This document shows positions 27,700 through 57,225 of a stretch of DNA of 64,000 bases, piece after piece (position 1 is the first letter of the stretch; each line of letters opens with the position of its first letter). The position numbers were made by a program, and so were the translations under genes. Source of the stretch: Olsenella sp. An285. GTDB lineage: Bacteria > Actinomycetota > Coriobacteriia > Coriobacteriales > Atopobiaceae. The stretch is from contig NZ_NFIZ01000006.1 in assembly GCF_002159625.1 (NCBI RefSeq), positions 62,001 through 126,000 of the forward strand, in the 5' to 3' direction. The notes beneath the pieces were generated by a model, which saw nothing but the letters and a program-made list of their open reading frames with translations, had not been told where the DNA came from and searched no databases.

Positions 27700-27773
27700 T
27701 TCCGCCTGATTTTCTCCAAAACTTGCTTTATTACGGCCTTATTTTCGCCATTCTGTGCGAAAATAAGGCCGTA
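27700..27773. repeat. Leader repeat A, copy 1 (palindrome upstream of an ATPase gene)
   Basis: A 17-bp perfect inverted repeat (27732-27748 with 27757-27773, 8-nt loop) is preceded by the tract ttccgcctgattttctccaaaa. Copy 2 is at 43010-43082. The palindrome ends 24 bases before the ATG of the ATPase gene at 27797, so it can be a leader hairpin or operator for that gene, or the terminator of guaA. Confidence 0.75.
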
Positions 27774-43009: not shown

Positions 43010-43082
43010 TTCCGCCTGTTTTTCTCCAAAAATGGCTAAACAACGGCCTTGTTTTCGCCAATTGATGCGAAAACAAGGCCGT
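43010..43082. repeat. Leader repeat A, copy 2 (solo)
   Basis: Same order as copy 1 at 27700: ttccgcctgtttttctcc tract, then a 16-bp perfect inverted repeat (43043-43058 with 43067-43082, 8-nt loop). No ATPase gene follows. Confidence 0.75.
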
Positions 43083-43090
43083 GTCTGGGA

Positions 43091-43121
43091 GCGTGCAAAA
43101 GTGCCTGTCCCCTTTGCACGC
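43091..43121. repeat. 13-nt-core palindromic element at the oleate hydratase stop
   Basis: Arms gcgtgcaaa (43091-43099) and tttgcacgc (43113-43121) surround the 13-nt core agtgcctgtcccc. The right arm touches the stop codon of the minus-strand gene beginning its end at 43121. Confidence 0.78.
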
Positions 43122-52037: not shown

Positions 52038-52157
52038 GGCAGCCCCCCTTCTCCTTGCAGAGGGGATACCGCGGGGTGTCACGCCTCAAGCGCTGCCTGG
52101 CACGAACGACAGGGCGCCTGAGCCCGGGAGGGGAGGTGCCTCCGGAGCGAGGGGGCC

Positions 52158-52219
52158 GTGCAAAGGGGGCAGTCACTTTTGCACGCTTTGTACGTGCAAA
52201 AGTGACTGTCCCCTTTGCA
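52158..52219. repeat. Paired inverted copies of the 13-nt-core element
   Basis: Two copies face each other: gtgcaaa-core-tttgcac at 52158-52184 (core gggggcagtcact) and gtgcaaa-core-tttgca at 52194-52219 (core agtgactgtcccc). Together they make one long hairpin of about 27 bp with a single mismatch. Located between the divergent membrane-protein and tex genes, so not a simple terminator. Confidence 0.8.
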
Positions 52220-52312
52220 AGGAGCGGCGTGCTTCTCACTGAGCGGGCTGCTTCGGGTATCCTAGGGAACCTTGCACTATCGCACCCACGCACCCGACCG
52301 AGGGAGCCACAC

Positions 52313-54469
52313 ATGGACATCATCGCCACGCTAGCTGAGGAGCTTGGCCTCAGGCCAGAGGCGGTCGAGGCCGCCGTCAAGCTCATCGACGAGGGCAACA
52401 CCATCCCCTTCATCGCCCGCTACCGCAAGGAGGCAACGGGCGGCATGGACGACATCGCCCTGCGCACGCTCGACGAGCGCCTCGCGTACCTGCGCAACCT
52501 CGAGCAGCGCAAGGAGGACGTCCTTCTCCTCATTGGTGCCCAGGGCAAGCTCACGCCCGAGCTCGAGGAGCAGATCCGCTCCGCCACGCAGCTCCAGCGC
52601 GTGGAGGACCTCTACAAGCCCTTCCGCAAGAAGCGCATGACGCGCGCGCAGAAGGCGCGCGAGGCCGGCCTCGAGCCGCTCGCCAACATGATCTTCATGC
52701 AGGTCGCAACCAAGGGCTCGGCACTCGACGCCGCGGCGCCCTTCGTGACGCCCGAGGCGGCGGAGGCCGGATTCGACACGCCCGAGAAGGCGCTTGCAGG
52801 CGCAGCCGACATCGTGGCCGAGACGGTGGCCGAGGACGCCGAGAACGTCGCCGACCTTCGCGCCTTCACCGAGAACACGGCCGACATCGTGTCCGTTGCC
52901 GTGAACCCCGACGAGAAGACCCCCTACGAGCCCTACTACGACTTCGCCGAGCCCGCGCACAAGATCCCCAACCACCGCGTGCTCGCGATCGACCGCGGCG
53001 AGCGCGAGGAGAAGCTGCGCGTTCGCGTTCGCGTAGACGCCGAGGCGGCCGTGGCGCGTCTGGGGAGCCGCTGGCCGCGCCGCCAGGGCGTCTTTGCCCC
53101 GGTGCTGGACGCCGCCATCGCGGACGGCTACAAGCGCCTCATGGCTCCCTCGCTCGAGCGCGAGGTCCGCGCCCGCCTCACGGTGCGCGCCCAGACGGAC
53201 GCCATCAGCGTCTTTGCTAAGAACGTCGAGAGCCTCCTCTCCGCGCGACCGGTGCGCGGCGCGCGCGTGATCGCGCTCGATCCAGGCTTCCGAACGGGCT
53301 GCAAGGTGGCGGTGCTTGACGAGTACGGCACCCTGCTCGACCACGGCGTGGTCTACCCCACGGTGCCGCGCCGCGACGTGGCGGGCACCAAGCGCGAGCT
53401 CGCGCGCCTCACGGCCAAGTACGGCATCAACACCATCGTCATAGGCAACGGCACCGCCAGCCGCGAGACCGAGGAGGTCGTCTCCGACTTCATCGCCGAG
53501 TCCGCACCGGAGCTGCGCTACACCATCGTCAACGAGGCCGGTGCCTCGGTCTACTCCGCCTCCGAGCTCGCGAGCCAGGAGTACCCCGACCTCGACGTCA
53601 CCACGCGCGGCGCCATGAGCCTGGGCAGGCGCCTGCAGGATCCGCTCGCCGAGCTCGTGAAGATTCCGCCCCAGTCCATTGGCGTGGGCCAGTACCAGCA
53701 CGACCTCGACCAGACGGAGCTTGCGCGCACGCTGGGTTACGTGGTGGAGGACGTGGTCAACCGCGTGGGCGTGGACGTCAACACCGCGAGCGCGAGCCTG
53801 CTCTCCTACGTCTCCGGCATCACGAGCGCCGTGGCGAGAAACATCGTGGCCTACCGCGAGGAGAACGGCCCCTTCACGGACCGTCGCCAGCTCAAGAAGG
53901 TCTCAAAGCTCGGTCCCAAGGCCTACGAGCAGTGCGCCGGCTTCCTCCGCATCAACGGGGGCAAGAACCCGCTGGACGCCACGGCGGTGCATCCGGAGAG
54001 CTATGCGGTGGCGACGGCGGTGCTCGAGCGGGCCGGCGTGACCGAGAAGGACCTCGCGCGCGGCGGCATCCCCGACATCCAGCAGCGCCTGGGCAGCGTG
54101 GGCGTGCTTGCCGGGGAGCTCGACTGCGGCATCATGACCCTCCTCGACATTGTCTCCGAGCTGGAGAAGCCCGGGCGCGACCCGCGCGACGACGCTCCCG
54201 AGGTGGTCTTCAGCCGCGCAGCGCTCTCGATCGACGACCTTCAGCCCGGCATGGAACTCACGGGCACCGTGCGCAACGTCGTGGACTTTGGCGCGTTCGT
54301 GGACGTGGGCGTGCACCAGGACGGCCTCGTGCACATCTCCAAGCTGGCGCGGCGCTTTGTCAAGCACCCGAGCGACGTTGTGGCGGTGGGCGACACCGTC
54401 AAGGTGTGGGTCGAGCGCGTGGACCGCGACCGCGGAAAGATCTCGCTCACCATGGTTCCCGGCAAGTAA
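52313..54469 (+). CDS. tex: Tex family RNA-binding transcription accessory protein
   Basis: 718-aa Tex/YhgF protein. It shows the N-terminal helical part (IPFIARYRKEATGGMDD), the YqgF-like domain (ALDPGFRTGCKVAVLD), helix-hairpin-helix region (NTASASLLSYVSGI) and the C-terminal S1 RNA-binding domain (GTVRNVVDFGAFVDVGVHQDG). ATG at 52313 after agggagc. Its stop is inside the arm of a palindromic element. Confidence 0.94.
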   Translation: MDIIATLAEELGLRPEAVEAAVKLIDEGNTIPFIARYRKEATGGMDDIALRTLDERLAYLRNLEQRKEDVLLLIGAQGKLTPELEEQIRSATQLQRVEDLYKPFRKKRMTRAQKAREAGLEPLANMIFMQVATKGSALDAAAPFVTPEAAEAGFDTPEKALAGAADIVAETVAEDAENVADLRAFTENTADIVSVAVNPDEKTPYEPYYDFAEPAHKIPNHRVLAIDRGEREEKLRVRVRVDAEAAVARLGSRWPRRQGVFAPVLDAAIADGYKRLMAPSLEREVRARLTVRAQTDAISVFAKNVESLLSARPVRGARVIALDPGFRTGCKVAVLDEYGTLLDHGVVYPTVPRRDVAGTKRELARLTAKYGINTIVIGNGTASRETEEVVSDFIAESAPELRYTIVNEAGASVYSASELASQEYPDLDVTTRGAMSLGRRLQDPLAELVKIPPQSIGVGQYQHDLDQTELARTLGYVVEDVVNRVGVDVNTASASLLSYVSGITSAVARNIVAYREENGPFTDRRQLKKVSKLGPKAYEQCAGFLRINGGKNPLDATAVHPESYAVATAVLERAGVTEKDLARGGIPDIQQRLGSVGVLAGELDCGIMTLLDIVSELEKPGRDPRDDAPEVVFSRAALSIDDLQPGMELTGTVRNVVDFGAFVDVGVHQDGLVHISKLARRFVKHPSDVVAVGDTVKVWVERVDRDRGKISLTMVPGK

Positions 54470-54500
54470 CATGACAAGGGGACAGTCCCTTTGTCATGTT
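54468..54500. repeat. 13-nt-core palindromic element at the tex stop
   Basis: Perfect 10-bp arms aacatgacaa (54468-54477) and ttgtcatgtt (54491-54500) around the core ggggacagtccct. The left arm begins within the tex stop codon. Arms differ completely from the gtgcaaa type. Confidence 0.82.
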
Positions 54501-54521
54501 ATGTAGGAGAGGGGAGACGGG

Positions 54522-55304
54522 ATGGACGTGTCCGGGGTGAGGGCGTTCGTGTTCAGCGGTGCCGGGACGACGCGTGCGGTGGCGGAACGGTTCGCGTGTG
54601 GGTGCGGCGTGCCGCACGAGGTGGTAGACGTCACGCCGCAGGGGGCGCAGGTCCCCATGTTCGAGCCGGGTGACCTGGCCGTCTTTGCCGTTCCGTCGTA
54701 CGGCGGGCGCGTACCCGCGCCCATGGTCGAGCGCATCTCGCGCTGCGTGGGGGGCGACACGCCGGCCGTCCTTCTTGTCACGTACGGAAACCGCGCCGTG
54801 GACGACACGTTCCTCGAGCTGGCGGACCTCGTGCGCAAGCGGGGCTTTGTCCCGGTGGCGGCAGGCGCCGTTGTGGCGCACCACTCCCTCATGGTCAACG
54901 TTGCGGAGGGGCGCCCGGACGAGAAGGACCTGGGCGTCGTGGACTCGCTCGCGCACGAGGTCATGGCAAAGCTGTTCGCTGCCGCGGACGTCCGAGCGGC
55001 GGAGCTCGCGGACGTTCCCGGCAACCGCCCGTACCGCGACTTTGGTGGCGTGCCCTTCCGTCCCGAGGCGGACCCCGCCGCCTGCACGTCCTGCGGCACG
55101 TGCGCGGCGCAGTGCCCCACGGGCGCCATCGTCGCGGCGAACCCGCGCGAGACCAACGCGGAGCTCTGCGTCTCCTGCATGCGCTGCGTGGCGGCGTGTC
55201 CGGCGGGCGCGCGCAAGATAGGCGGGGGAGCCGCCCTCGCCGCGGCTCGTGCCGCGTTTGCCGTGCGCTGCGCCGCCCGCCAGGAGTCCTACCTGCTTCT
55301 GTAA
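54522..55304 (+). CDS. Flavodoxin-ferredoxin fusion (EFR1-like)
   Basis: 260 aa. The N-terminal half (FVFSGAGTTRAVAERF, AVPSYGGRVPAPM, LLVTYGNRAVDDT) is a flavodoxin-like domain. The C-terminal part has two 4Fe-4S motifs, CTSCGTCAAQCPTGA and CVSCMRCVAACPAGA. This arrangement is the EFR1 family of small electron carriers common in anaerobes. ATG at 54522 after ggagaggggag. Confidence 0.87.
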   Translation: MDVSGVRAFVFSGAGTTRAVAERFACGCGVPHEVVDVTPQGAQVPMFEPGDLAVFAVPSYGGRVPAPMVERISRCVGGDTPAVLLVTYGNRAVDDTFLELADLVRKRGFVPVAAGAVVAHHSLMVNVAEGRPDEKDLGVVDSLAHEVMAKLFAAADVRAAELADVPGNRPYRDFGGVPFRPEADPAACTSCGTCAAQCPTGAIVAANPRETNAELCVSCMRCVAACPAGARKIGGGAALAAARAAFAVRCAARQESYLLL

Positions 55305-55313
55305 ATGAGGCTC

Positions 55314-55397
55314 GCATGCTTTGCACGCTTTGGGACGTGCCTGAAACGTGCAAGTTTTTGCACGTTTCAGGCACGTCCCAAAGCGTGCAAAGCATGC
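55314..55397. repeat. Perfect 40-bp inverted repeat
   Basis: Left arm 55314-55353 and right arm 55358-55397 are exact reverse complements with a 4-nt loop (gttt). The arm contains tttgcacg, ggacgtgcctg and cgtgcaa, so it is related to the 13-nt-core family but longer. It lies between the flavodoxin-ferredoxin gene and the GH13 promoter, where it can terminate transcription. Confidence 0.85.
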
Positions 55398-55421: not shown

Positions 55422-55483
55422 TGGACAGAGAGAAAGTCGCGTGAGATAATAAAAACAGCGACAAATTGGAAACGTTTCCAATT
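55422..55483 (+). promoter_or_regulatory. GH13 promoter with LacI-type operator
   Basis: Promoter: -35 tggaca (55422-55427), 17-base spacer, -10 gataat (55445-55450). Directly downstream is a perfect 20-bp palindrome centred on CG (aattggaaac / gtttccaatt, 55464-55483), the form of a LacI/GalR-family operator. A second half-site-like tggaaac follows at 55485. No lacI-type gene is in the window. Confidence 0.8.
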
Positions 55484-55507
55484 CTGGAAACGGGAGAGGG
55501 GAGCCGC

Positions 55508-57073
55508 ATGGGCAGCTGGCTTGACGACGCCGTCTTCTACGAGATCTACCCGCAGAGCTTCAACGACACCAACGCCGACGGCATCGGTGACCTCCAGGGC
55601 ATCATCGAGAAGCTCGACTACGTGCGCGAGCTCGGCTGCAACGCCCTCTGGCTCAACCCCTGCTTCGTCTCGCCCTTCGGTGACGCGGGCTACGACGTGG
55701 CGGACTACTGCCGGGTGGCCCCGCGCTACGGCACCAACGAGGACCTCGAGCGCCTCTTTTCCGAGGCCCACGCCCGTGGCATGCACGTTCTTCTCGACCT
55801 GGTGCCCGGCCACACCTCGATTGAGCACCCGTGGTTCAAGGAGTCCTGTCGCGCCCAGAAGAACGAGTACTCCGGCCGCTACGTCTGGACCGACGACGTC
55901 TGGACGCCCGTGGGAGACGTGCCGGGCGTGAACGGCGTCCTGCGCGGCATCGCCGAGCGCAACGGTGCCGTGGCCGTGAACTTCTTCGCCTTCCAGCCGG
56001 CGCTCAACTACGGCTTCTACAACGTGACCGAGCCCTGGCAGAGCGCGATGGACTCGCCCGAGGCCCTCGCCACGCGCCAGGCCATGAAGGACGTCATGGC
56101 CTTCTGGCTCGAGCGTGGCTGCGACGGCTTCCGCGTGGACATGGCCGGCTCGCTCGTGAAGAACGACCCGCAGCAGGAGGGCACGATCGCCCTCTGGCAG
56201 GACATGCGCGCGTTCCTCGACGCCACGTACCCCGATGCCGTCCTCATCTCCGAGTGGGGCGAGCCGGACAAGACCATCCGCGCCGGGTTCCACATGGACT
56301 TCCTGCTCCAGTTTGGCACCTCGCACTACATGGACCTCTTCCGCTGCGAGCACCCGTGGTTCGCGCGCGAGGGCGCGGGCAACGCGAGCGAGTTCGTGGC
56401 GACCTACCGGCGCAACATGGAGCTCACGGACGGGCGTGGCCTCATGTGCATCCCGTCCGGTAACCACGACATGGACCGCATGCGCAAGTTCCTGGACCCG
56501 GAGGAGATGAAGATGGCGTTTGCCTTCATCATGTCCATGCCCGGGTGCCCCTTCGTCTACGCTGGCGACGAGATCGGCATGCGTCATCTGGACGTGACCT
56601 CCGTCGAGGGTGGTTACCAGCGCACGGGCGCGCGCTCGCCCATGCAGTGGGACGCGGCGGAGCCCAACTTCGGCTTCTCCGACGCGCAGGCCGACGAGCT
56701 CTACATCCCCCAGGATCTCGGTGACGACGCCCCGACGGTCGCCGCGCAGATGGCCGACGACTCCTCGCTCTGGCACGAGGTCCAGCGGCTGGCCACGCTG
56801 CGCCGGGAGGTGCCGGCGCTGGGCGTGAACGCCTCGGTCGACTTCGTCTATGTCGAGAAGAACGCGTATCCGCTCATCTACCTGCGCGCGGAGCGCGGCG
56901 AGGGCGGTCAGCGCGTGCTCTGCGCGCTCAACCCGTCCGGTCGCCCCGTCGAGGTTCCGTGCGGCTTCGAGCCCGCCCGCGAGCTCTACGCGCTGGGCGA
57001 GAGGTGCGAGCTCACAGACGGCGTCCTGCGCATGCCCGCCGAGAGCGCCACCTTCTTCGAGCTCCGTATGTAA
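55508..57073 (+). CDS. GH13 alpha-glucosidase/amylase-family enzyme
   Basis: 521-aa GH13 enzyme with an intact (beta/alpha)8 barrel. Catalytic residues are D211 (nucleophile, FRVDMAG), E249 (acid/base, LISEWGE) and D321 (GNHDMD). It begins MGSWLDDAVFYEIYPQSF as in oligo-1,6-glucosidases and trehalose-synthase relatives. No signal peptide, so it is cytoplasmic. ATG at 55508 after gagagggga is preferred over TTG 55466, which lies in the operator. Substrate (maltodextrin, isomaltose, sucrose) not resolved. Confidence 0.9.
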   Translation: MGSWLDDAVFYEIYPQSFNDTNADGIGDLQGIIEKLDYVRELGCNALWLNPCFVSPFGDAGYDVADYCRVAPRYGTNEDLERLFSEAHARGMHVLLDLVPGHTSIEHPWFKESCRAQKNEYSGRYVWTDDVWTPVGDVPGVNGVLRGIAERNGAVAVNFFAFQPALNYGFYNVTEPWQSAMDSPEALATRQAMKDVMAFWLERGCDGFRVDMAGSLVKNDPQQEGTIALWQDMRAFLDATYPDAVLISEWGEPDKTIRAGFHMDFLLQFGTSHYMDLFRCEHPWFAREGAGNASEFVATYRRNMELTDGRGLMCIPSGNHDMDRMRKFLDPEEMKMAFAFIMSMPGCPFVYAGDEIGMRHLDVTSVEGGYQRTGARSPMQWDAAEPNFGFSDAQADELYIPQDLGDDAPTVAAQMADDSSLWHEVQRLATLRREVPALGVNASVDFVYVEKNAYPLIYLRAERGEGGQRVLCALNPSGRPVEVPCGFEPARELYALGERCELTDGVLRMPAESATFFELRM

Positions 57074-57100
57074 ATTGGGGACAGCCCCCAATTTACATAC
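57066..57100. repeat. 13-nt-core palindromic element at the GH13 stop
   Basis: Perfect 11-bp arms gtatgtaaatt (57066-57076) and aatttacatac (57090-57100) around the core ggggacagccccc. The left arm contains the last codons and stop of the GH13 gene. Confidence 0.82.
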
Positions 57101-57225
57101 GCACAAAGCTGAAAGAATTAGAGAAAGCTAACATGATTTTGGCTGGTAAAAGCGGGTAGGAGAGGGCTATCTACATCCAACGTGCCCGGCCGGCGCCGCC
57201 GACGGGGCAGGGAAGGGGTCGCCCC

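Follow-up and report, generated by a model that had tools for sequence, protein, structure and literature searches.

The 64,000-nucleotide stretch of the Olsenella sp. An285 genome analysed here (the window) includes a perfect palindrome at positions 55314-55397, and the question raised by this locus is what kind of element it is and how its two arms came to match at every position. Direct reading and a repeat finder agreed that the arms (55314-55353 and 55358-55397) are 40 nt each and 100% complementary, with 4 nt, GTTT, between them (55354-55357). The arms, loop and coordinates given in a preliminary description were therefore exact, and the words tttgcacg and gtgcctg that it mentioned are both found in the palindrome. 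At about 4^-40 for any given position and size of loop, the probability of a 40-bp perfect inverted repeat is negligible, and this palindrome is the longest by far in the window, the runner-up perfect inverted repeat having 17-bp arms. Single-strand folding gave an energy of -58 kcal/mol versus -17.1 +/- 2.7 for shuffled sequences (z = -15.1). The parts of the element and the genes that flank it are the following.

55314..55397, no strand: palindromic element (REP doublet / REPIN) with 40-bp perfect arms (sequence reading, repeat finder, folding)
55332..55352, + strand: left core unit, GGGACGTGCCTGAAACGTGCA, common to the whole family (core comparison)
55359..55379, - strand: right core unit, an inverted copy (core comparison)
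55353..55358, no strand: 6-nt spacer AGTTTT between the cores (doublet comparison)
55314..55319, with its partner at 55392-55397, no strand: GCATGC arm extension past the family unit, locus-specific (doublet comparison)
54522..55304, + strand: upstream gene for a 260-aa protein that has 4Fe-4S ferredoxin domains (gene calls, domain search)
55466..57073, + strand: downstream gene for a protein of the alpha-amylase family, with its ATG probably at 55508 (gene calls, domain search)

Each half of the palindrome is a REP unit. The left hairpin consists of the core and the 12 nt that precede it on the 5' side (55320-55331), so that the left unit spans 55320-55352 and the right one 55359-55391. The outer A and T of the spacer are paired, which leaves GTTT alone unpaired as the loop, and the GCATGC present on both sides stretches the arms to 40. 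A search of the genome itself (G000, a draft of 2.41 Mb in 33 contigs) with the palindrome as query gathered about 29 loci. Within the genus, family copies were also found in the sister metagenome-assembled genome (MAG) G018 (about 19) and in G014 (two), and none was found in the 28 other genomes searched. A search across 84,980 species, which possibly left out records of the own genome, found the exact 21-nt core GGGACGTGCCTGAAACGTGCA in one species alone, the uncultured Atopobiaceae bacterium represented by the sister MAG. The typical copy, including that at 55314-55397, is about 72-84 bp and is composed of two inverted 33-nt units, each with 12 variable outer nucleotides and the 21-nt core, and the spacer between the cores is 6 nt in 45 out of 45 doublets. 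Only three of these doublets have strongly extended arms, namely the palindrome at 55314-55397, L014 and L040:6178, and the first is the longest-armed copy in its own genome. Variant copies include three units, tandem unit duplications and single units, and a single unit can be folded as a stem, an internal loop and an upper stem, like group-2 REPs.

Dispersed, mainly intergenic copies of a hairpin unit of 20-50 nt and inverted doublets of set spacing, the features by which REPs and REPINs are recognized, are thus both found in this family. As no GTAG or GT[AG]G tetranucleotide foot was seen in the outer 12-24 nt of the copies compared, the palindrome was not filed as a GTAG REP.

A candidate for the cognate enzyme was identified among the Pfam Y1_Tnp matches in G000. 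This RAYT gene (G000:C33:40440-41204, L029:2141-2905) codes for a 254-amino acids protein and is located between rsfS on one side and dinB on the other, as named from their translations. Clusters of three family units are found on each side of it, and the two clusters are inverted repeats of one another over about 107 bp at 91%. The family units therefore bracket a RAYT gene in their own genome, as in a REPtron, and the transposase gene has a long inverted repeat at each end, as in a TIRtron. Besides its match to Pfam Y1_Tnp, the protein scored 69.7 bits with NCBIfam REP_Tyr_transpos, falling short of the cut-off of 80, and matched PDB 4er8 TnpAREP in sequence (E = 0.0018). The AlphaFold2 model (mean pLDDT 85.5) had as its top fold match 4er8, TnpAREP bound to a REP hairpin (E = 1.8e-6); fold matches other than HUH/Y1 enzymes were discarded as noise. 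The residues H63, H65, Y122, N126 and P127 are unchanged in an alignment of 29 RAYTs of the genus, and the protein includes the HUH and Y-x-x-x-NP motifs together with the TnpAREP fold. Its C-terminus shows helices at 215-250 in the model and a QIERLTGIG-type motif, with weak matches only to HTH-type profiles. Considering its length, the NHVH sequence and the C-terminal helices, the enzyme probably belongs to subclass 2.1 / TIRYT (PMC6006769, PMC3733652). Elsewhere in G000 a broken RAYT gene (C1:213327-214071, L129) is followed by a perfect palindrome with 44-bp arms (GGGGACAGGACGAAA...), whose ortholog in G018:C213 (L131) is also near perfect and has different arms.

Without a GTAG foot and with a RAYT like those of subclass 2.1/TIRYT, the family comes closest to the TIRtron among published kinds (PMC3733652; PMC6006769). 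The features in common are a long HUH-Y1 protein of about 250 amino acids with NHVH and Y-x-x-x-NP, whose C-terminal tail may be HTH-like; inverted repeats that bracket the gene; repeats that are dispersed, moderately abundant and arranged as doublets and clusters; and, in sister hairpin classes, sequences such as GGGGACAG that fit GGGGWSAS, a motif published for TIRtron repeats only as a majority motif. Unlike those repeats, the family core, which reads GGGGACGT/GGGACGTG, does not include GGGGWSAS, the doublet spacer is fixed at 6 nt, and the arms, many of them perfect, evolve together. In the survey of Quentin et al. 2018 (PMC6006769), genes of subclass 2.1 are reported as having no REP-like sequences nearby. 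The family also resembles REPINs and BIMEs (PMC3116915; TnpAREP-REP, PMC8266576) in its inverted REP doublets that can form one long or two small hairpins, its intergenic location, a cognate RAYT bracketed by its REPs, and arm-compensating changes, but it differs from them in the lack of GTAG, in its about 30 loci compared to hundreds, and in a RAYT that does not resemble group 2 or 3.

The arms of this family co-evolve within each copy. At the outer 12 nt, arms of the same copy agree at 75% and arms of different copies at 61%, and none of 5,000 permutations reached 75%. At the outer positions -13 to -24 palindromy was at background level and only three doublets extend strongly, so a general palindromy of the outer flank was discarded. 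Across the 429 arm positions of 13 G000/G018 ortholog pairs there were 18 joint changes, compared to 3.3 expected under independent arms; complementarity was kept in both species at 15 of them. When arms were shuffled among loci the mean was 9.8 joint changes, and 18 was reached in 8 of 10,000 trials. Furthermore, the spacers are exact reverse complements of each other in four out of 14 ortholog pairs (L018/L040, L022/L046, L026/L047 and the first doublet of L032/L048). At L016, the final codons of the gene to the left, CCTGCCGC, a gene end that is conserved or nearly so across genomes, recur inverted to the right of the palindrome in G007 and G018. The L016 locus, L041, L154, L155 and L162 represent one convergent intergenic gap, which is occupied by palindromes of differing classes depending on the species. 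The flanks of the G000 copies L025 and L031 are united in a single G018 copy, L049, either a rearrangement breakpoint or a chimeric contig.

In published work, homogenised arms together with an inverted spacer are the signature of template switching during replication (PMC8604942; also PMC8794818), and the arm and spacer pattern, read from sequence comparison, suggests that this process has acted at the family palindromes. As in the published quasipalindrome correction, arms are homogenised, spacers inverted and perfect stems created; the difference is that here the process would be recurrent in one dispersed bacterial repeat family and would reach into a gene end. Since compensatory changes in REPINs were reported earlier (PMC3116915), the phenomenon as such is not new.

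We consider it likely that the palindrome at 55314-55397 is a non-autonomous REP doublet, similar to a REPIN or BIME, with the C33 enzyme as its cognate RAYT and with arms perfected by template switching. Family members may have moved by transposition: the RAYT would act on single-stranded REP hairpins at replication forks and thereby spread copies, the doublet being able to fold as one long hairpin or as two single ones. After insertion, replication would stall at the hairpin and the polymerase would switch template between the arms, which would render them identical, occasionally invert the spacer, and occasionally copy neighbouring unique sequence, even a gene end, into the arm on the other side. 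The perfect 40-bp arms would then be the outcome of correction and not of a recent origin. The preliminary description had taken the lack of mismatches as a sign of recency, and this is not supported, because the orthologous copies in G018 are near perfect as well, with different arm sequences, in spite of flanks that diverge by about 5-12%.

Selection for a hairpin at the RNA or DNA level, acting as a terminator, as a protection of mRNA 3' ends or as a protein-binding site, could instead maintain the complementarity of the arms; with few orthologs, the joint changes could also come from such selection. The location of the copies is in agreement with a role of this kind. According to heuristic gene calls, 16 doublets of G000 are found between tandem genes, seven between convergent genes and none between divergent genes, three being inside called frames, and mostly they are near stop codons. 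The stop codon of the ferredoxin-domain gene ends 10 bp upstream of the palindrome, the predicted fold is very stable, published REPs are placed alike (PMC3733652), and REPINs have been described as showing compensatory changes (PMC3116915). So close behind a stop codon, the palindrome may also influence the 3' end of the transcript coming from the upstream gene. However, a classical intrinsic terminator is not indicated, as no T-run follows the palindrome on the + strand, where AAATCGGACGGAC comes next, and selection on a hairpin predicts neither the exact inversion of spacers nor the appearance of a gene's final codons in the flank on the other side. As the explanation of the perfect arms we consider hairpin selection unlikely. 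No usable empty site for the palindrome was found in relatives, because the region upstream of the G018 amylase gene is unrelated and the neighbours of the ferredoxin gene differ (G003/G029).

The window also includes hairpins of other classes, as listed below.

54467..54501, no strand: single hairpin of a different REP class, GACAAGGGGACAGTCCCTTTGTC (repeat finder, RAYT-bracket comparison)
57065..57101, no strand: single hairpin of a third REP class, AATTGGGGACAGNCCCCAATT (pattern search, RAYT-bracket comparison)
52159..52219, no strand: doublet of a fourth class, GTGCAAAAGTGACTGTCCCCTTTGCA, the 13-nt-core family of the preliminary description (sequence search)
43092..43120, no strand: single unit of the fourth class, GTGCAAAAGTGCCTGTCCCCTTTGCAC (sequence search)

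Four intergenic gaps within 5 kb (52159-52219, 54467-54501, 55314-55397 and 57065-57101) contain a different RAYT-linked hairpin class each. The class GACAAGGGGACAGTCCCTTTGTC also brackets the RAYT at G000:C29:43189 and the third class that at G000:C1:249532, the pattern TTGGGGACNGNCCCCAA of the latter being found at 70 G000 sites, many of them paired about 40 bp apart. In relatives, the RAYTs of L112 and L133 are bracketed by the fourth-class CGTGCAAAAGGGACAG. Another hairpin that recurs, ACGGCCTT(A/G)TTTTCGCC...GGCCGT, is located at 27732-27773, 43043-43082 and L190:6308-6347 (G005) and does not include the GGGAC motif.

The palindrome had been proposed to derive from the 13-nt-core hairpins, as a longer or composite form of them. 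The kinship stands as far as style is concerned, since the palindrome and the TTTGCACG / GTGCCTGTCCCC hairpins (52159-52219, 43092-43120) all look like hairpin repeats of the RAYT type, with the words TTTGCACG and GTGCCTG in common and a similar architecture of a stem plus GGGAC/GTCCC. The derivation is not supported, as in the own genome the palindrome retrieves a separate homogeneous family when used as query and 52150-52225 retrieves another, and the two classes bracket different RAYTs; with a family and a RAYT of its own, a composite origin of the palindrome is very improbable.

An origin as a MITE of a DDE-type insertion sequence would account for a dispersed inverted-repeat element with long complementary arms. 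We regard it as extremely improbable considering that no exact or clean target-site duplication could be defined around the family copies, no direct one being evident at those listed, that the element ends are ragged, that odd-numbered tandem units occur, and that the linked gene codes for a HUH-Y1 transposase. The possibility of a fold-back chimera, a worry of the preliminary description that a draft of 33 contigs with a break inside one family copy (C14 end / C30 start) might appear to justify, deserves practically no credence, because the independently assembled G018 MAG has palindromes at the same family loci, with arms that are different yet complementary, and because the flanks of the palindrome are unique and unlike each other.

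In E. coli it is established that replication hairpins are cut by SbcCD (PMC4245961). None of the 31 genus genomes had a match over the cut-off to the profile of SbcD, a subunit of this hairpin nuclease, while such matches were found in several genera elsewhere in the family. In 400-kb samples, perfect arms of at least 25 numbered four in the own genus, and arms of at least 20 were seen in no sample from relatives of other genera, either SbcD-containing or SbcD-lacking. Loss of SbcD as the sole cause of long palindromes was not supported, since SbcD-lacking members of other genera have no arms of at least 20 in 400 kb. Loss of SbcCD may permit long palindromes without producing them by itself.

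A RAYT between rsfS and dinB is also present in G014, G029, G024 and G027 (in the last with the dinB side alone on the same contig), with 53-57% identity to the C33 protein. The repeats that bracket these RAYTs resemble a hairpin related to the family, a GCCTAAA-GGGG-type REP, of which exact copies number 22 in G014, 22 in G029, 18 in G024 and 10 in G027, and 0-4 in the remaining genomes, with the exception of G030, which has 41; presence of the rsfS-dinB RAYT and copies of this repeat are associated (Fisher p = 1.8e-4). G030 has its 41 GCCTAAA repeats without a RAYT at rsfS-dinB, and G018 has family repeats with the rsfS-dinB site empty of a RAYT. The G018 assembly is 85% complete, and its family copies may at present be without the rsfS-dinB enzyme. 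These two genomes indicate that the repeats today need no linked RAYT. Throughout the genus, bracketing inverted words of at least 14 nt were found at 33 of 40 RAYT loci, as compared to two of 300 random control pairs, and nearly always included GGGAC/GTCCC.

As a tentative generalization, which we hold to be somewhat more doubtful than not, the RAYT-linked palindromes of the genus would be self-perfecting: recurrent template switching, possibly primed by a nick of the RAYT itself, would rewrite either arm after the other, flip the spacer and lengthen the arms into the ends of adjacent genes. They would be tolerated as SbcCD is missing, and different RAYT classes would reuse the same intergenic sites.

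The family can be regarded as a new one within a known kind, the REP doublets linked to RAYTs; it comes nearest to TIRtron repeats, and its evidence of arm correction is unusually clear. It offers a clean natural example of how palindrome arms evolve in concert in bacteria, with orthologs at hand for comparison, and ties REPIN-like doublets to a type of RAYT that the published survey gave as having no REPs. From a long perfect palindrome neither youth nor artefact need follow, and its perfect arms give no insertion date. Family copies nevertheless harm assemblies, as the G000 contigs C14 and C30 meet within one of them. The genus, rich in RAYT/REP pairs, is a setting in which the co-evolution of transposases and their hairpins can be tested.
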